A DNA stretch of 40,940 nt from Cyanobacteria bacterium FACHB-63 (GTDB taxonomy: Bacteria > Cyanobacteriota > Cyanobacteriia > Leptolyngbyales > Leptolyngbyaceae): the NCBI GenBank assembly GCA_014695255.1, contig JACJNX010000090.1:1-40940 (forward strand), written 5' to 3'. Positions within the stretch are counted from its first letter, which is position 1; each line of letters opens with the position of its first letter. A program made the translations under genes and the position numbers. The notes under the pieces were generated by a model. That model saw only the letters and a list, made by a program, of their open reading frames with translations. It had not been told where the DNA came from and made no database searches. Below, piece by piece: positions 22,203 through 30,915 of the stretch.

Positions 22203-22637
22203 CTATTCAGGCGTTTCTTCTGGCGATCGTTCTGTGCCATTCCGTCGTTTGGATTTCGGAATTGACTCTGGATCACGCACACTGGGCGGCTCTTTCAGGA
22301 TTGCAATTAATGCCGAAACTCCAGCTTGTAAATTTGTGCTACTCAGCACGTCAACGACTGCGGCAGCAGCAGCTTCTTCGATTAAAGCAATAGTTTCAGC
22401 TTTCATCTGGTTTTCGAGTTCACTCCGGAACAATTGAGCGATCTCCTGTTGTCCTACTTCAATTAGAAAACATTCTGCGGGGGTCGAGATTTGTTCTAGA
22501 ACGATCGCAAGCTTCTCATCAAAAAATTGACAGGTGACTTTTTCTGGACGCTGTCCGGTTCGCTCTCGATAAAGTGCTTGTAATTTCTGTCCAATCGTGC
22601 GCTCAATCTGTCCACGGGTTGGATTATCGTTTGTCAT
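22203..22637 (-). CDS. DUF2294 domain-containing protein
   Basis: A 144-residue soluble protein with the DUF2294 pattern: TRGQIERTIGQKLQALYRER, then GQRPEKVTCQFFDEKLAIVLEQ, and a long alanine-rich helix (IALIEEAAAAAVVDVL) near residues 82-100. The C-terminal 25 residues are charged and probably disordered. Members occur in many bacteria, often several per cyanobacterial genome. No reaction is known; a sodium-translocating decarboxylase name sometimes attached to the family is not supported by anything here. First gene of a same-strand run leading to lipase, dihydrouridine synthase, MNT and HEPN. Confidence 0.8.
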   Translation of the reverse strand: MTNDNPTRGQIERTIGQKLQALYRERTGQRPEKVTCQFFDEKLAIVLEQISTPAECFLIEVGQQEIAQLFRSELENQMKAETIALIEEAAAAAVVDVLSSTNLQAGVSALIAILKEPPSVRDPESIPKSKRRNGTERSPEETPE

Positions 22638-23897: not shown

Positions 23898-24752
23898 TTA
23901 AACAATCGCAAACTGTGGGCACTCCACGCCGTACATTTTTCGCCCGACTGCTTCGGCAACCGGCTTGATGCTGCGAACCAACTGCATCATGGTTTCGAGC
24001 GACAGCGCTTGCTGAGCATCCGATACGGACTGATCCGGCTCAGGATGGCATTCGATGATTAAGCCATCTGCTCCACAAGCGATCGCTGCTCTCGACAAGT
24101 CTGCAATTAATTCCCGCCGTCCGGCTGCGTGGCTCGGATCAACAATCACAGGCAAGTGTGTAAGCTGTTTCAGGGCTACAACCGCACCTAAATCGAGGAC
24201 ATTGCGCGTGTAGCTATCGAAGCTGCGGATACCCCGCTCACACAGCACCACATTGGGATTACCGTGGCTCATTATATATTCGGCTGCCATGATGAATTCC
24301 TCGATCGTCGCTGCCAGTCCGCGCTTCAATAAGATCGGTTTCCCTGCCTGTCCCAAAGCTTTGAGCAAATCAAAATTCTGCATATTGCGACTTCCGACTT
24401 GCAGCATATCTGCATAGGCTGAAATTTCTTCAATCTGCGAAATTGCCATCACTTCGGTGACAACGGGCAGATCATAGCGCTGGCGCACCGTTGCAAGAAT
24501 TTCCAACCCTTCCAGACCAGCCCCCTGAAAAGCGTAAGGGGAAGTGCGCGGTTTGTACACACCTCCCCTTAATGCTTGAATCGGAGCCGATTTGAGTTCG
24601 CGGGCGATCGTTTCCATTTGCGTTAGACTTTCGACGGCACAAGGGCCGCCAATAATTACGACTTCCTCACCGCCGATCGACACCTCTTTTGACAAAGAAA
24701 CAATCGATCTCTGATCGGGGGTAGCTTTGCGGACTAATCTTGCATCTTTCAT
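23898..24752 (-). CDS. aroF: 3-deoxy-7-phosphoheptulonate (DAHP) synthase, type I-beta
   Basis: A 284-residue enzyme that condenses phosphoenolpyruvate and erythrose 4-phosphate, the first step of the shikimate pathway to Phe, Tyr and Trp. Key blocks: IIGGPCAVES with metal ligand Cys38, RGGVYKPRTSPYAFQG, LQVGSRNMQNF, LLKRGLAATIEEF, IVDPSHAAGRRE (His ligand) and IIECHPEPDQSVSDAQQ (Glu and Asp ligands). Only about 30 residues precede the barrel, so there is no ferredoxin-like, ACT or chorismate-mutase regulatory domain; feedback inhibition of the protein is therefore doubtful. The ATG at 24752 has AGGAG nine bases upstream. The leader carries two tandem aromatic-codon attenuators (24794-25048), which are likely its main control. 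Confidence 0.95.
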   Translation of the reverse strand: MKDARLVRKATPDQRSIVSLSKEVSIGGEEVVIIGGPCAVESLTQMETIARELKSAPIQALRGGVYKPRTSPYAFQGAGLEGLEILATVRQRYDLPVVTEVMAISQIEEISAYADMLQVGSRNMQNFDLLKALGQAGKPILLKRGLAATIEEFIMAAEYIMSHGNPNVVLCERGIRSFDSYTRNVLDLGAVVALKQLTHLPVIVDPSHAAGRRELIADLSRAAIACGADGLIIECHPEPDQSVSDAQQALSLETMMQLVRSIKPVAEAVGRKMYGVECPQFAIV

Positions 24753-24793
24753 GGACTGAAACTCCTGTAAATGTAAATGGGATGAACTTCAAC

Positions 24794-24825
24794 AAAAAAC
24801 CCGGAGCCTCTCAGGGTTCCGGGTT
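24794..24825 (-). terminator. Attenuator terminator 2 (proximal to aroF)
   Basis: On the minus strand AACCCGGA (24825-24818) and TCCGGGTT (24805-24798) form an 8-bp GC-rich stem, extended inside by AGG/CCT-type pairs, followed by six T residues overlapping its base (24799-24794). It lies 41 bases before the aroF start codon and after leader ORF 2, so it would stop transcription before aroF. Confidence 0.9.
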
Positions 24826-24858
24826 GGCAATTGCAAATGCAAAAAACTCACCCAGAAC
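24816..24858 (-). promoter_or_regulatory. Antiterminator pairing of attenuator 2
   Basis: Minus-strand GTTCTGGGT (24858-24850, last codons and stop of leader 2) can pair over nine bases, with one G-U, with ACCCGGAAC (24824-24816), the 5' arm of terminator 2. A competing pairing joins ACTCACC (24907-24901, leader codons 2-4) with GGTGAGT (24852-24846). These are the 2:3 and 1:2 structures of a classical attenuator. Confidence 0.75.
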
Positions 24859-24910
24859 GCCTTTGGGTAAAAAAGTAAAAACCGTAAAGCCAGGAAGTGA
24901 GGTGAGTCAT
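24848..24910 (-). CDS. Aromatic-rich leader peptide 2 of the aroF attenuator
   Basis: A 20-codon ORF, ATG at 24910 and TGA at 24850-24848, encoding MTHLTSWLYGFYFFTQRRSG. Six of eight residues from 7 to 14 are aromatic (one Trp, two Tyr, three Phe), far above chance. It directly precedes a terminator whose 5' arm can pair with the ORF's last codons. In ribosome-mediated attenuation, shortage of charged tRNA stalls the ribosome on such codons and favours the antiterminator. No Shine-Dalgarno sequence is evident. The peptide itself is probably without function; the act of translation is what matters. Confidence 0.82.
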   Translation of the reverse strand: MTHLTSWLYGFYFFTQRRSG

Positions 24911-24933
24911 TGCAATCGGAAATTGAGGACATT

Positions 24934-24963
24934 AAAAAAGCCGCAGATCTTAACTCTGCGGCT
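24934..24963 (-). terminator. Attenuator terminator 1 (distal to aroF)
   Basis: Minus-strand AGCCGCAGA (24963-24955) and TCTGCGGCT (24947-24939) form a perfect 9-bp stem with a 7-base loop, followed by six T residues (24939-24934, the first within the stem). It lies after leader ORF 1 and before leader ORF 2. It could also serve as a terminator for the kinase gene upstream. Confidence 0.9.
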
Positions 24964-25006
24964 CACCAGACGGACACATGAGGATTTACCTCGCCGGGTG
25001 AGCCGC
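24958..25006 (-). promoter_or_regulatory. Antiterminator pairing of attenuator 1
   Basis: Minus-strand GCGGCTCACC (25006-24997, codons 14-18 of leader 1) pairs perfectly over ten bases with GGTGAGCCGC (24967-24958), which overlaps the 5' arm of terminator 1. The two pairings exclude each other. I find no clear 1:2 protector helix for this unit. Confidence 0.75.
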
Positions 25007-25048
25007 CGATCGCCAAAAAAAGTAAAAGTAGGAAACGCTGTAACGCAT
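24986..25048 (-). CDS. Aromatic-rich leader peptide 1 of the aroF attenuator
   Basis: A second 20-codon ORF, ATG at 25048 and TAA at 24988-24986, encoding MRYSVSYFYFFWRSAAHPAR. Residues 7-12 are six aromatic residues in a row (Tyr, Phe, Tyr, Phe, Phe, Trp), with another Tyr at position 3. It has the same length as leader 2, shares the FYFF core, and is followed in the same way by an antiterminator segment and an intrinsic terminator. No Shine-Dalgarno sequence is visible; if the promoter candidate at 25060-25088 is right, the message would begin only a few bases before the ATG. Confidence 0.82.
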   Translation of the reverse strand: MRYSVSYFYFFWRSAAHPAR

Positions 25049-25059
25049 TTGCTGATTTG

Positions 25060-25088
25060 GCTATAAAGTTCGATACTCTGAACCGTAA
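25060..25088 (-). promoter_or_regulatory. Candidate promoter of the aroF leader
   Basis: Minus-strand TTACGG (25088-25083) and TATAGC (25065-25060) are 17 bases apart and could be weak -35 and -10 boxes. A TTGACT hexamer at 25111-25106 is a better -35 but has no good -10 at the right distance. The call is by eye and tentative. Confidence 0.3.
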
Positions 25089-25152
25089 CAGAGAAATCGA
25101 GCGAAAGTCAAGCCCCCCGATCGGGTGATGTCATGATTTCAAGAAGGTAGCT

Positions 25153-28100
25153 TCAATCGCCTTCTTGTCTGATCGGCAGTGAAATCACGAATTCTGTTCC
25201 TTGATTGAGCGCCGAATGAACTTCGATCGATCCCTGATGTTTCTCGACCACAATTTGCCGGACGATCGCGAGTCCTAATCCTGTGCCTTTGCCCACCGCT
25301 TTCGTTGTGAATAAGTGATCAAAAATCCTCGATCTAACCTCCTCACACATTCCCTTGCCGTTGTCGCGGATATGGATTTCTACCCTATTCTCTCTAGTCT
25401 TGACGGTTTGAACCGTGATTTTTTGGGGATTAGCTTCTAGCTCAGTAAAAGAAGAGTGTTGTGCCATCTCATCGAACATATCGATCGCGTTCGCAAAAAT
25501 GTTCATAAACACCTGATTCAGTTGTCCCGGAAAACAGTCAATATTCGGAATGTCTCCATAGTTCGTCACCACTTCAATGGCAGGACGTTGATCATTCGCT
25601 TTCAGCCGATATTTGAGAATCAGAATGGTGCTGTCGATGCCTTCGTGGAGATTTGCTGCGATCGTATCTTCTGTATCCGCGCGGGAGAAGGTTCGCAGGC
25701 TGGTGCTAATCGCTTTGATTCGCTCCGTGGCTGTTCTCATCGAGCGTAACAGTTTAGGCAGATCGGTTTTGAGAAACTCGACATCAATCTCGTCCGCAAA
25801 CTCTTGTACAGGCGGAGCCGCATTCGGATGATGTTGCTGATACAGGTCTACATACTTCAGTAAGTCCTGCACAAACTCTGCTGCATTATTAATGCTGCCA
25901 TTCAAGAAGCCGAGCGGGTTATTAATTTCGTGAGCCACACCCGCTACTAAGTTACCCAGCGCCGACATCTTTTCACTTTGCACCATTTGCATTTGAGCCT
26001 GCTGAAGCTTTGTTAAGGCTTGCTCTAAGCTCTGATTCTTCTCCTGGATGGCAAGCGTTAGGTGTTGACGATCGGTCACATCCAGCGAGATCGAAACGCC
26101 CCCTAAAATTTCTCCATTTTGAGCAATCAACGGCGCATTAAACCACTCGCAGATAATACGTTCCCCATTCTTCTTGATATTTTCATTCAGGGCTTGTGTT
26201 CCGCCAGTTTGCTGCAAAATTCCGGCTGCTACATCATCGACGTAAGGCTGAAACTCCTCTGGAACGATGATGCGAAAATGCTGTCCCATGACTTCTTCGG
26301 CTGAATAACCAAAGGTGGCTGCGGCAGCACGATTCCAGGCTTGAATTTCAAATTTTGTGTTCCACTCCAGTACCGCGATCGGAGATTGCTGGATCAAAAG
26401 GTTTAATCGCTGCTGGGATTGTTCGATTTGGTAAGAGCGTTCTTGCTCTCGTGCGTAGAGCTTTGCGTTTTCGATCGCAATAGCAGCCTGTCCCGTTAAA
26501 ATCTTCACAGTCTCTAAGCAATCGATCGTAAACGCTCCTTTTACCAGGTTGTTCTCTAGATACATCAATCCAATGAGCTTTCCTTGATAAGTGATCGGAG
26601 TACAGAGTAACGACTGAGGTTGATGCTTGAGAACATAAGGATCATTCACATAAATGCTTTCAGATGCAGCATCGCCTGAGACGATCGCACTTTGAGTGCG
26701 AGCCACGTACTGAAGAACAGTCAAGGGGACATCCTGGCTTTGGGTGAGTGGGATTGCTTCTACGACAATTGCTGACTCTTCTTGATCGGTATCTGCGACT
26801 TCAATAAAAAGTTCACCGTCGCGATCGAGCACAATGCACCCTTTCTGTGCCCCTGCATTTTCCAAAATGATGTGTAAAAGCCGATCGAGCAATTGATTCA
26901 GCACCAGTTCGCTAGAGATTGCCTCAGTCGCTTTGAGAATGGTTGCTAGATCTAAAAAGCCACTATTTGTACTGCTGCTGCTCTTGGTATGGGTAATGGT
27001 AGCAGAGTGTATGGGATCAAGTGTAGAAAAATAGCGAGGATACTGCGCTTCGAGTTGCTTCACTTTTGCAGTTGCGCCCCACTGCTGATACTGTTGGTGC
27101 GCTTCAGTTAAGTACGCCTGAGCAATTTTTGGCTTGCTCAGACTGAAGTAAAACTTAGCAGCAAGTTCATTTGCTAATGCTGCTTCTTGAATATAGCCCT
27201 GTTCGATCGCACCTGCGATCGAGCGATCGTACTGTTCCATTGCTGCATAGGTATCTCCAACAATGCGAGAACGCTCAGCTTCTACAAGATCATACTTATG
27301 TTGGAAGTTCATCGGAGCAAACTGCGCCCAAATCCGCATTTGATTCTGATTGAAGGCAACACTTTTAAGCATTGCAGCACTATCGATAGAATGATCCGAG
27401 CAAATTGCTAGGGTTGCTAATGAGTCGTATAAATTATAGATTGCAACACAATACATCCCCGCAATGCCATGAATGCAGAGTTTAAGTTGATTAGCTGTCG
27501 CGATCGCAACCTCATATTTTTCAAACCCGTAGCTGAGAATCAAGAGATTGAGTAAACGGTAGCATTCTTGAGTTTGATCGCTTTTAGAAGAATTGCTCTG
27601 ATCCTGGATTAGACGATACACATCATTAGGCTGAGCAATCAAAGCTGAAACACTCGTTTCCCAAACTTGATGAAAATTCAAGATGGCTTCTTGGTGTAAG
27701 CTATCAATCTTCTGCCTCCAAAGTAGCATCTCTGAATAGAGGGAATCTAATCTGTTTCCGGCAAAGTAGGCGTAGACACAGTAGCAGTGCAGTGCAAGCG
27801 CAGCAAACTCCAAATCTCCGCTTCCAATCCCAAATTGATAGGCTTTGAGCAGTTGTGGAATCGTCTGTCGCAGTGCTGTTCCCCAAGGATTGACAAATCC
27901 TTCGAGATTGACCAGTGTGCGAGCGTGCAAATCTTTGCTGATTACAGTATTCAGTAGCCTTGCAGCAAGCCGTCCAAACTGTAATCCTAGCGGTAGACTA
28001 TCGCTATGGCTGCACAAAACTTGTCCATACACCGCATAGAAAAATACAGACTCCGGTGCGTTTCCATGCAACATTGATAGATGAATTGCAGTCTCAACCA

Positions 28101-30915
28101 GGAAACGGTGTAATTCTGGGGTTGAATAGTAGACTGTTACCTCCACACTGGCACAGATTCGTAGAGCTGCTAGATACCGATGATCACGCATTCGAGGAAG
28201 GTCAGCTAGTGCCTTAACTTCTGCTTCAGAGAGGGTGAGCAAGGTCGATCGCACTGCTGTCTGCTCGGTTGAATCTGGGGGTGCTGTGCGAATGGAAACA
28301 CCCAAAGATTGCAGAACAACGATCGCAAAATTGACCGCATCAATCATGCGATTTTGTGCCATGCAAGCTTGAATCCAAAGCTCACAAACTCCTACTCGAT
28401 CCAATAGGTCTAAACTATGCGCTGAGACCCGACTGCCCAGCGCCTCTAGCTGGGCAAACTGTCCTGTCAGGTAAGCAGCTTGTGCTGCATCTTCATAGAG
28501 TGACAAGGTGGCATGATAGTTTTTTTGCCAACAATCAGGCGGTAAACAACGAATTGCAATCTGCAAATAGCCTAGAGCATGTTGATACGCGGCAGAGGAT
28601 TTCGCTCGAAGTGCAGCAATTCGGTTTAGCTGCACAAGCTGATCCCGCTCTGCTTCAGAAACAAGGTCGATCGCGCTATTCCAGTGATTGACGAGTTCAA
28701 AGACATTCGCCTCGATTTCGATCTCTGATAAGTGCTGTTGCAGAAGGCGAGCGATCGCAAGATGCGTCAGTTTTTTCTGATTGTCGGCAATTAGGGCATA
28801 AGCTGCTTGCTGGACGCGATCGTGGAGGAACTTGAATTTTGGATTTCGGGCTTTCAGATCTACACTCCCGGTTTCATCTAAAAAAGCACGATAATGCTGA
28901 TCTAATGGCAAGATGAACTCTTGGTCGATCGCGCTCCATAACGCTTGTAAAGTCTGAAAGGCAGAGAGCTGACTGACGGTAGAAAGCGTTTTGAGATCAA
29001 ATTGATTCCCAATACAAGCGGCTAATTGCAATATCGTCTGAGTTTGTACCGAGAGTTTTTGGAATTTCGCGACCATCAACTCTACAACATTCTCAGTGAT
29101 GTTACATTGGCGGATTTGTTTGATGTCCCATTGCCAGGAATTTGTTTCAAAATTAAAGGTGAGTAAGTTTTCAGAATGCAGCGCCTTGAGTAATTGCGTT
29201 ACAAAAAAAGGATTTCCTTGCGTTTTGTCATAGAGTACTTTTGCCAAAGGTTGAACTGTAGAATAGTGACAACACAAGGCATCTGCAACGAATTGCATCA
29301 CATCATGCAGCGATAAAGCTTCTAAGGTGATGTGTTCAAACCTGACCGCTTTCGATTCCAATTGTGTTAGCACCTGCATCAAGGGATGAGTTGCATCGAC
29401 TTCGTTATCCCGATAAGCCAAAATTAATAAGCGATGTTGGTTCTCTGGGCGACTTAAAAACTCAGGCAGGCTTGAAATTGTAGCTGCATCTGCCCATTGC
29501 AAATCGTCCATAAACTCAATCAGGGGAGCCTCTGGTGTTGATGCTGTCAACATAAAGGCAAAAAAGGTTTGAAAAAAGCGTTTTTGGGCTGCTACCGGGG
29601 GGATTTCGGGTAAGGACGGTTGCTGACCGATTAGCCATTCCAATTCTGGAACAATGTCAATCACAGCCCGTCCATTTGCACCAACCGCAGCAGAAAAGCG
29701 ATCGCGCCAATATTCTACCTGTTCTTGAGTTTCGCCCAAGATTTGTCGGATTAGTTCCCCATAGGCTTCTGCAACCCAGGTGTAGGGAACCTCTCGTTTG
29801 AACTGATCAAACTTACCCGCAATAAAATGCGCGTGACTGGCCGTGACAGGCTTGAAGAGTTCTCGAATTAAGGCGGTTTTACCCACTCCAGAGTAGCCAC
29901 CGATTACGACTAATTCACAGCTTCCCTGTCTTGCTCGCTCGAATGCGGCTAGCAGTGTTTGGAGTTGGGAATTGCGCCCATAAAGCTTCTCAGGAATGTT
30001 GAGTTGAGCAATGCGATCGAGCCTACCAATTTCAAACGGCGAGATCGTTCCCGTTGTCTGTAATTCGTCTAGGCAGTGTTGCAAATCCGCCTGTAATCCC
30101 TTTACGCTTTGATAGCGATCTTCTGCGTTTTTTGCCATCAGCTTCGTGACAATTTCGGCGATCGCAGTTGGCACTTCTGGCCTCAGCGAATGAATTTCAG
30201 GCGGTTCCTTTGCTAGATGACTGTAGACAATCTCAAGCGCATCTTCCCCAACAAAGGGAACTTGTCCGGTGAGAAGTTCATAGAGCGTCACACCCAATGA
30301 ATAGAAATCGCTGCGGTAGTCGATCGACCGGTTCATTCGTCCCGTTTGTTCGGGAGAGAGATAAGCAAGGGTTCCTTCGAGTTGATTGGGGTGCTGAAGT
30401 TCTTGAGTTTGATGAGACAGTTGAGAAGCAATGCTGAAGTCAATCAGGCGGATTTGTTTTGCGTCAGGATTGATCAGAATGTTTGCAGGCTTGATGTCTT
30501 TATGAACGATTTTATGATTGTGTAAGTGACCGAGTGTAATGCTGAGTTGCAGTGCGATCGAGAGAAACTCAGCGGTCGAGATTTGCTGATGCTGTTGTTT
30601 GATGTGTTGTAGGTAGTCGGACAAAGACAGCCCGCCACAATCTTCCATTACGAGTACATCCCCATCTTCACAGGACTCTAACCCGATCGCCTTGACGATT
30701 CCGGGGATCTCTAGCTGTTTGACCAATGTGTATTGATTGCGAAACTGCACCTTTTCTTCTAAGGATGGCGCTTCATGACGCAATCGCTTCAGGATAACTG
30801 GCGTTTGATCGGTGATCCGGACAGCACGATAGACCAGAGTTCTTGAACCTCGATACAGTATTCCGATCACTGAGTAGCCTGACAATCCAGCTATTGGGTC
30901 AAATGTTGCCTGCAT
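25153..30915 (-). CDS. Multidomain serine/threonine-histidine kinase (HstK-type) with AAA ATPase, GAF and PAS domains
   Basis: A 1920-residue signalling protein. Residues 10-280: Ser/Thr kinase with HKDIKPANIL at about 138, DFSIA at about 158 and a SPEQTGRMN activation segment. Residues 310-600: AAA/MalT-like ATPase with Walker A GGYSGVGKT at about 339. Residues 600-1300: long helical TPR-like region. Then a GAF domain (SELVLNQLLDRLLHIILENAGAQKG... omitted core, near 1340-1490), a PAS domain (near 1510-1640), HisKA with His1662 (GVAHEINNPLG) and a complete ATPase (FANAIDMFDEM, IRDNGKGM, FTTKAVGKGTGLGLAI). Such double kinases are a known cyanobacterial class, exemplified by HstK of Anabaena. 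No transmembrane segment. Signal and targets are unknown. Its transcript could run into the aroF leader, as no strong terminator separates them. Confidence 0.93.
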   Translation of the reverse strand: MQATFDPIAGLSGYSVIGILYRGSRTLVYRAVRITDQTPVILKRLRHEAPSLEEKVQFRNQYTLVKQLEIPGIVKAIGLESCEDGDVLVMEDCGGLSLSDYLQHIKQQHQQISTAEFLSIALQLSITLGHLHNHKIVHKDIKPANILINPDAKQIRLIDFSIASQLSHQTQELQHPNQLEGTLAYLSPEQTGRMNRSIDYRSDFYSLGVTLYELLTGQVPFVGEDALEIVYSHLAKEPPEIHSLRPEVPTAIAEIVTKLMAKNAEDRYQSVKGLQADLQHCLDELQTTGTISPFEIGRLDRIAQLNIPEKLYGRNSQLQTLLAAFERARQGSCELVVIGGYSGVGKTALIRELFKPVTASHAHFIAGKFDQFKREVPYTWVAEAYGELIRQILGETQEQVEYWRDRFSAAVGANGRAVIDIVPELEWLIGQQPSLPEIPPVAAQKRFFQTFFAFMLTASTPEAPLIEFMDDLQWADAATISSLPEFLSRPENQHRLLILAYRDNEVDATHPLMQVLTQLESKAVRFEHITLEALSLHDVMQFVADALCCHYSTVQPLAKVLYDKTQGNPFFVTQLLKALHSENLLTFNFETNSWQWDIKQIRQCNITENVVELMVAKFQKLSVQTQTILQLAACIGNQFDLKTLSTVSQLSAFQTLQALWSAIDQEFILPLDQHYRAFLDETGSVDLKARNPKFKFLHDRVQQAAYALIADNQKKLTHLAIARLLQQHLSEIEIEANVFELVNHWNSAIDLVSEAERDQLVQLNRIAALRAKSSAAYQHALGYLQIAIRCLPPDCWQKNYHATLSLYEDAAQAAYLTGQFAQLEALGSRVSAHSLDLLDRVGVCELWIQACMAQNRMIDAVNFAIVVLQSLGVSIRTAPPDSTEQTAVRSTLLTLSEAEVKALADLPRMRDHRYLAALRICASVEVTVYYSTPELHRFLVETAIHLSMLHGNAPESVFFYAVYGQVLCSHSDSLPLGLQFGRLAARLLNTVISKDLHARTLVNLEGFVNPWGTALRQTIPQLLKAYQFGIGSGDLEFAALALHCYCVYAYFAGNRLDSLYSEMLLWRQKIDSLHQEAILNFHQVWETSVSALIAQPNDVYRLIQDQSNSSKSDQTQECYRLLNLLILSYGFEKYEVAIATANQLKLCIHGIAGMYCVAIYNLYDSLATLAICSDHSIDSAAMLKSVAFNQNQMRIWAQFAPMNFQHKYDLVEAERSRIVGDTYAAMEQYDRSIAGAIEQGYIQEAALANELAAKFYFSLSKPKIAQAYLTEAHQQYQQWGATAKVKQLEAQYPRYFSTLDPIHSATITHTKSSSSTNSGFLDLATILKATEAISSELVLNQLLDRLLHIILENAGAQKGCIVLDRDGELFIEVADTDQEESAIVVEAIPLTQSQDVPLTVLQYVARTQSAIVSGDAASESIYVNDPYVLKHQPQSLLCTPITYQGKLIGLMYLENNLVKGAFTIDCLETVKILTGQAAIAIENAKLYAREQERSYQIEQSQQRLNLLIQQSPIAVLEWNTKFEIQAWNRAAAATFGYSAEEVMGQHFRIIVPEEFQPYVDDVAAGILQQTGGTQALNENIKKNGERIICEWFNAPLIAQNGEILGGVSISLDVTDRQHLTLAIQEKNQSLEQALTKLQQAQMQMVQSEKMSALGNLVAGVAHEINNPLGFLNGSINNAAEFVQDLLKYVDLYQQHHPNAAPPVQEFADEIDVEFLKTDLPKLLRSMRTATERIKAISTSLRTFSRADTEDTIAANLHEGIDSTILILKYRLKANDQRPAIEVVTNYGDIPNIDCFPGQLNQVFMNIFANAIDMFDEMAQHSSFTELEANPQKITVQTVKTRENRVEIHIRDNGKGMCEEVRSRIFDHLFTTKAVGKGTGLGLAIVRQIVVEKHQGSIEVHSALNQGTEFVISLPIRQEGD

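Follow-up and report, generated by a model that had tools for sequence, protein, structure and literature searches.

How can the synthesis of a DAHP synthase be matched to the supply of aromatic amino acids when the enzyme lacks a regulatory domain? This question is raised by the aroF locus of Cyanobacteria bacterium FACHB-63, which we analysed within a window of 40,940 nt (the whole stretch of contig JACJNX010000090.1 under study). A preliminary description, made from the letters and a list of open reading frames, had proposed that two attenuators stand in series before a gene for a barrel-only DAHP synthase, and both the sequence of the window and that of relatives of the locus support this arrangement. 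We consider it very probable that aroF is controlled by ribosome-mediated attenuation in response to the charging of Phe, Tyr and Trp tRNAs, with two serial units behind one promoter. Many cyanobacteria seem to place such a pair ahead of a reduced form of the first enzyme in aromatic amino acid synthesis.

Layout of the aroF leader

The leader lies on the minus strand between 25117 and 24753 and comprises, from 5' to 3', a promoter-like pair, leader 1, terminator 1, leader 2 and terminator 2, followed by aroF. As claimed beforehand, two leader ORFs of 63 nt each are found here upstream of the gene for a DAHP synthase of 284 residues, and, in the window as in its relatives, each ORF overlaps an antiterminator arm and precedes a terminator. 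The features are as follows.

25106-25111, minus strand: -35-like element TTGACT of the predicted promoter (TTGAC-19 nt-TACGGT; like arrangement in 28/48 loci)
25082-25087, minus strand: -10-like element TACGGT, from pattern comparison over loci
24986-25048, minus strand: leader 1 ORF, 63 nt, MRYSVSYFYFFWRSAAHPAR; core kept in 48/48 non-redundant loci
24997-25006, minus strand: 5' arm of the unit 1 antiterminator (region 2), within the end of leader 1, from alignment pairing
24958-24967, minus strand: 3' arm of the unit 1 antiterminator (region 3), from alignment pairing
24934-24964, minus strand: unit 1 terminator, hairpin 24964-24938 with T-run, from consensus scan and alignment pairing
24901-24915, minus strand: region 1 of unit 2, around the leader 2 start codon, pairing with 24853-24838 in the window
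24848-24910, minus strand: leader 2 ORF, 63 nt, MTHLTSWLYGFYFFTQRRSG, from ORF list and codon alignment
24850-24861, minus strand: 5' arm of the unit 2 antiterminator (region 2), overlapping the end of leader 2, from alignment pairing
24838-24853, minus strand: partner of the leader 2 start region, from own-versus-swapped pairing over 48 loci
24815-24825, minus strand: 3' arm of the unit 2 antiterminator (region 3), from alignment pairing
24794-24824, minus strand: unit 2 terminator, hairpin 24824-24799 with T-run to 24794, from direct reading, fold and alignment
24762-24766, minus strand: AGGAG, likely ribosome binding site of aroF, judged by its position
23898-24752, minus strand: aroF, type Ibeta DAHP synthase, barrel only, 284 aa, from NCBIfam, Pfam and solved relatives

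Transcription probably starts near 25076. A consensus scan for terminators matched unit 1 as its one hit, which by itself is no proof because shuffled sequences average 0.8 hits. The same scan missed the terminator of unit 2, which was read directly in the sequence and is present in the fold.

Conservation of the leader peptides

Dinucleotide shuffling of the 365-nt stretch, repeated 5000 times, gave two ORFs with 6 or more aromatic residues in 8 in just 5 cases and one such ORF in 137, and no further ORF of this aromatic richness exists on either strand of the 41-kb window.

Relatives of aroF number 444 in the GTDB contig collection. Among the best 80 of these 444, which we examined, 76 loci carry both leaders in the same order, including three (L013, L036, L051) whose leader 1 falls under a threshold of 5 aromatic residues in 8 and was added by hand. 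L053 has leader 2 only, and L020, L035 and L071 are cut by contig ends 47, 102 and 91 nt upstream. Together with the window the 76 make 77 loci, in which the two leader stops lie 135-238 nt apart and the second stop lies 74-316 nt from aroF; a redundancy filter left 48 loci for alignments.

These loci qualify two traits that had been noted for the pair. The equal length of 63 nt is correct for the window but does not extend to the group, as many relatives have a leader 1 of 57 nt, and the FYFF core common to both leaders is confined to the clade of the window, most relatives having FYFW instead. The presence of all three aromatic residues, by contrast, is general: it was confirmed in 75/77 leaders 1 and 76/77 leaders 2.

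In an unselected codon alignment of the 48 loci, which replaces an earlier codon table that had been selected by regular expression and was biased by that selection, the core of leader 1 is aromatic in 236/240 cells, with a Trp codon TGG that is invariant in 48/48 loci, and the core of leader 2 is aromatic in 327/335 cells. Phe, Tyr and Trp replace one another, Tyr and Gly codons differ in their third base between loci, Phe is encoded almost exclusively by TTT, and conservation is far lower in the columns beyond the cores. This pattern of codon substitution indicates that the leader peptides are under selection at the peptide level. A few loci deviate in leader 2: in L049, L052, L054 and L060 it is devoid of the usual ATG and would begin at GTG or another codon, and in L110 (G174:C1:729900-730600), read by eye, it has no stop at the usual place and continues through the terminator, which is either a true departure or a sequence error.

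Alternative RNA structures in both units

RNAalifold proposed an antiterminator in both units from the two alignments. We compared each of the four helices over the 48 loci with 500 shuffles per helix, which ignore relatedness. The antiterminator of unit 1 is paired in 96.0% of cells and has 25 both-side changes (shuffled mean 5.3), and its terminator is paired in 98.4% with 12 both-side changes (shuffled mean 1.3); the corresponding values in unit 2 are 99.5% and 6 changes (0.4) for the antiterminator and 94.8% and 17 changes (6.5) for the terminator. The covariation score exceeds that of all 500 shuffles for each of the four helices, and sliding the partner strand lowers the paired cells to 4.9-68.3%. 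Two other measures gave less: further pair types are not above control in unit 1 (80/500 and 149/500 shuffles as high) or in unit 2 (146/500 and 499/500), and in the unit 2 terminator the count of pairs changed on both sides does not rise above control either (195/500 shuffles).

In each unit antiterminator and terminator are mutually exclusive, region 3 being common to both. In unit 1 the overlap is confined to the stem base, and the antiterminator displaces just the lowest few pairs of the terminator. ORFs, alternative helices in each unit, spacing, order and the link to aroF are established at the level of aligned sequences.

The spacing between codons and helices is equally regular. Counted from the last aromatic codon (first base), the antiterminator arm lies at 8 or 11 nt in 46/48 loci in unit 1 and at 14 nt in 44/48 in unit 2, and the arm and the stop codon are 13 nt apart in 43/48 (unit 1) and 7 nt apart in 47/48 (unit 2). 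With the leading edge of the ribosome assumed at 12 nt, a ribosome at the stop codon would leave zero antiterminator pairs free in 48/48 loci of both units, and one at the first aromatic codon would leave nearly all of them free. At the last aromatic codon the computed free pairs average 6.5 of 10 in unit 1, where the ribosome still covers 3.5 of 10 on average, and 7.8 of 8 in unit 2.

While region 4 is unmade, a ribosome at the last aromatic codon yields a computed fold dominated by the antiterminator in 46/48 loci (unit 1) and 47/48 (unit 2). Once region 4 is made, the energies with a stalled ribosome come near balance with the terminator slightly ahead (means -0.6, -0.6, -0.5 and -1.5 kcal/mol), and antitermination is preferred with the stall at the last aromatic codon in 2/48 loci (unit 1) and 16/47 (unit 2). 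Because these energies slightly favour the terminator, antitermination would have to rest on the order and kinetics of synthesis. The values are minimum-free-energy toys, calculated without pseudoknots, kinetics or proteins, and the structure named as winner in each ribosome state is in all cases a computed one.

A model for control by two attenuators in series

A single promoter upstream of leader 1 would produce a leader RNA with two classical attenuators, followed by aroF. An undelayed ribosome would reach the stop codon and mask the 5' arm of the antiterminator, so that the terminator forms. A shortage of charged Phe-, Tyr- or Trp-tRNA would make the ribosome stall at the aromatic run; the 5' arm, just past its leading edge, would then be free to pair with region 3 before region 4 exists, and this pairing of regions 2 and 3 would allow RNA polymerase to continue. 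Polymerase would have to pass both units. That the leaders stall ribosomes and respond to starvation we infer from codon content and spacing. If the read-through probabilities of the two units multiply, the pair may give the tighter shut-off and steeper response that the preliminary description had supposed.

The distribution of promoter-like sequences is consistent with such a common transcript. The pattern TTGAC-17 to 20 nt-TANNRT occurs upstream of leader 1 in 28/48 loci (mononucleotide shuffles average 0.45 and reach at most 3), a count that is descriptive, as the pattern was written after a few loci had been viewed, and that leaves 20/48 loci without a match. The same pattern is found in 0/48 loci between leader 1 and leader 2 and in 0/48 between leader 2 and aroF. 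A generic and stricter promoter scan returned no promoter-like site in the leader region. The conserved promoter-like element thus lies only upstream of leader 1, which suggests that both units, and not one alone, are transcribed with aroF.

Distribution of the tandem leader

The covariance-model search that had been recommended as a check was carried out with models R1 (unit 1) and R2 (unit 2) on 292 genomes of the phylum, using filters that are stricter and may lose weak matches. R1 was found in 29 and R2 in 28 of the 292 genomes, which may include genomes used in building the models. A close aroF ortholog (>400 bits and at least 70% identity; the next match scores 314 bits) is present in 29/292 genomes, and in 27 of these 29 R1 is followed by R2 and then by aroF, all on a single strand, with R1 163-333 nt and R2 13-172 nt from the aroF match. 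In this survey the tandem is present in 9 of the 10 families that hold a close ortholog. By the models, G116 has R1 only and G143 has R2 only, with promoter-like sequence directly before leader 2; both loci (L105 and L106) were read by eye. Among the 263 genomes without a close ortholog, 262 have neither unit and one (G030) has a remnant of unit 1.

Within the order of the window, a close ortholog occurs in 34/42 genomes. R2 was found in each of 30 further orthologs of the order and R1 in 29 of them, in one case as a partial unit at a contig end, with L159 lacking unit 1. Ten of the 30 are identical to loci of the models, and the 20 new ones have R1 in 19 and R2 in 20. Relatives therefore do not retain the terminators at the expense of the aromatic ORFs, an outcome that had been named as telling against attenuation; they keep both. 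The 12 non-orthologous DAHP synthase genes examined in other genomes are preceded by no tandem ORFs and by none resembling the present leaders, and 3 of the 12 have one upstream ORF with 5 aromatic residues in 8. Viral contigs hold 3 distant relatives (45-46% identity), and plasmids hold none at E up to 1e-90.

Several individual loci deserve a separate remark. In G030 (L107, G030:C48:71500-75500), unit 1 stands, by eye, directly before an apparent fragment of aroF, which reads as the remnant of a locus in which a deletion took the base of the unit 1 terminator, unit 2 and most of aroF. In L053 (1-394, a Microcoleus MAG), unit 1 is missing and unit 2 alone precedes aroF; the sequence abutting leader 2 resembles what we take to be the right end of an IS200/IS605 element. 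In a Richelia MAG (L034, 1140-1500), short repeats that span over 200 nt separate unit 2 from aroF, and an aroF ortholog with one in-frame TGA (G042:C1:3292652-3293467) has both units intact according to the models.

Alternative explanations

The two hairpins might be ordinary terminators, the first of them ending an upstream gene, with the aromatic ORFs as mere by-products of T-rich sequence. A same-strand gene does end close by in the window, at 25153, and the prevalence of TTT among Phe codons would fit. Of the 48 loci, however, 33 have a nearest upstream ORF that runs in the opposite direction, so that unit 1 is not generally the terminator of an upstream gene, and the upstream neighbours of the 48 form about 30 unrelated groups (by crude ORF calls). 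Aromatic identity is moreover kept despite the variable third bases of Tyr and Gly codons and with the invariant TGG of leader 1, the alternative antiterminator helices are conserved, and two such ORFs hardly ever arise in shuffled sequence, all of which makes this explanation highly improbable. We give just as little credit to a T-box, riboswitch or protein-bound leader that senses amino acids directly and to which the ORFs would be secondary. It is established that T-boxes and riboswitches can stand in tandem before amino acid genes, a precedent in that they too are two serial switches for one ligand class, but no such family matches here: at gathering score no Rfam family is present in the window, the T-box covariance model is unmatched, and below gathering score 24700-25200 contains three weak, unrelated Rfam matches with a best E of 0.039. 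What is conserved, instead, are codons at a fixed distance from an antiterminator. The terminated leader RNAs, predicted at ~140 and ~280 nt, could finally act in trans as sRNAs, with control of aroF as a secondary effect. Leaders that end early can be stable RNAs, and excerpts of a study on Nostoc 7120 give 327 predicted sRNAs ending at terminators (PMC4734099); yet the units occur only with aroF in our survey, as their near-complete lack from genomes without a close ortholog illustrates, and a main role in trans is very unlikely.

Do the two units do the same? They are not copies and differ in kind, a point that the preliminary description had missed: their stems and leader endings are unlike throughout. 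In unit 2, the start region pairs with sequence behind the stop codon, the own partner giving a mean of -16.8 kcal/mol against -13.7 for swapped partners, with 0/5000 permutations as good. The same helix was sought in unit 1 of the 48 loci and gave no signal (-10.8 against -10.6 kcal/mol, 1109/5000 permutations). With forced structures in untranslated RNA, terminator minus antiterminator amounts to -7.9 kcal/mol in unit 2, the terminator being favoured in 46/48 loci, and to -0.1 kcal/mol in unit 1, where it is favoured in 23/48. These calculations suggest that unit 2 would be closed by default and unit 1 would not.

Unlike functions of the units, with an untranslated unit 1 that is neutral or open and a unit 2 that is closed unless a ribosome stalls, because its start region pairs with the post-stop sequence, would make the pair a sensor and a safety lock and not equal copies. 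The pairing signal seen in unit 2 and not in unit 1, the energies and the differing stems and leader endings argue for this reading. Against it, the energies are toy values, the stretch tested includes bases past the start codon, the own partner ranks in the best tenth for only 16/48 loci (5 expected), and single genomes tolerate the loss of either unit; we hold it to be quite possible, if somewhat short of probable. Also quite possible, though again short of probable, is a deeply conserved two-stage leader in which unit 1 terminates only if its leader is fully translated and unit 2 terminates unless a ribosome is stalled. If true, polymerase would pass only in genuine shortage of aromatic tRNAs and not when translation merely starts slowly, and close coupling of transcription and translation would work in cyanobacteria.

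AroF and the other DAHP synthases of the genome

AroF is a TIM-barrel DAHP synthase of the TIGR01361 group without an N-terminal ferredoxin-like or chorismate mutase domain, and its solved relatives include barrel-only as well as domain-bearing forms. The absence of a regulatory domain, noted before on inspection, is corroborated by the profiles: the match to NCBIfam NF006421 begins only at position 69 of 338, so that AroF is without the N-terminal regulatory domain, and no ferredoxin-like domain is detected by Pfam. The enzyme may consequently be insensitive to end-product inhibition, and it is plausible that leader control takes the place of allostery for AroF.

Two more PF00793 genes are present in the genome, encoding proteins of 353 and 274 aa. 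The 353-aa protein (L082) is a second DAHP synthase with the ferredoxin-like domain PF18152, the 274-aa protein is probably a KDO8P synthase, judging from its sequence, and a type II DAHP synthase was not found in the genome. The 500 nt before pheA, before trpE and before a second chorismate-binding gene hold no ORF with at least 4 aromatic residues in 8, and neither do the 1242 nt that precede the second DAHP synthase gene. The RNA models of unit 1 and unit 2, applied to this genome at E up to 10, match the locus in the window only. The cell thus retains a second DAHP synthase that has a regulatory domain and lacks such a leader. A DAHP synthase with a regulatory domain and a leader-controlled one may divide the work between them, which matters for the engineering of aromatic products in cyanobacteria.

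Relation to known attenuation systems

Attenuated genes on record include trp, phe and pheST of E. coli and aroF of C. glutamicum, the last under control of aroR (excerpts of PMC11802643). According to the same excerpts, trpL-trpE and pheL-pheA of E. coli likewise combine a short ORF enriched in end-product codons with alternative antiterminator and terminator helices and an arm just beyond the critical codons. The cyanobacterial leader differs from trpL and pheL in its serial units, in the presence of all three aromatics in each leader, in the gene of the common pathway that it precedes, and in the antiterminator of unit 1, which contests only the base of the terminator stem. In C. glutamicum, the aroR leader (Neshat et al. 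2014, cited after PMC11802643) also has an aromatic sequence, Phe-Tyr-Phe, before a DAHP synthase gene and permits read-through when Phe is limited; it differs in being one unit of an actinobacterium with a quoted motif without Trp, the likeness being one of description.

Two leader ORFs with attenuators on a single leader RNA are known from Salmonella mgtCBR, where they respond to ATP and proline, respectively, act additively and are called a singular example (excerpts of PMC3641672). That both present leaders hold Phe, Tyr and Trp codons speaks against different signals for the two units here. Tables in parts of a comparative study (PMC1173090) contain predicted attenuators before aroAIbeta of Thermus and Thermoanaerobacter, which concern the same enzyme family. 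For Streptococcus pneumoniae they show an aromatic supraoperon with two such units, which precede different parts of a gene cluster, unlike the serial units described here. All are given as table symbols without the type of attenuator. The table rows covered include no cyanobacterium.

A comparative study from 2016 states, in the portion consulted, that there were no reliable data on attenuation in cyanobacteria (PMC4833913), a view that an attenuator pair before nearly every close aroF ortholog would change. Among the entries listed by our searches of open-access literature, none concerns a leader-peptide attenuator before a cyanobacterial aroF, which is weak evidence of absence, as subscription papers and supplements lay largely outside the search. 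The switch mechanism is known, and the tandem arrangement and the cyanobacterial setting seem to be undescribed. The literature searched likewise gave no answer as to what a second attenuator adds in leader-peptide systems. The natural series of loci with two units, unit 1 only or unit 2 only allows this contribution to be asked, and the tandem leader would provide a native probe of transcription-translation coupling in cyanobacteria.

Neighbouring genes in the window

The upstream same-strand gene that ends near the leader region (minus strand, 25153-30915) encodes a protein of 1920 aa with Ser/Thr kinase, AAA ATPase, GAF, PAS and histidine kinase ATPase domains. This gene lies just upstream of aroF here and is not conserved at that position in most relatives. 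A stand-alone MpsC-domain protein (PF10057) is encoded at 22203-22637 on the minus strand.
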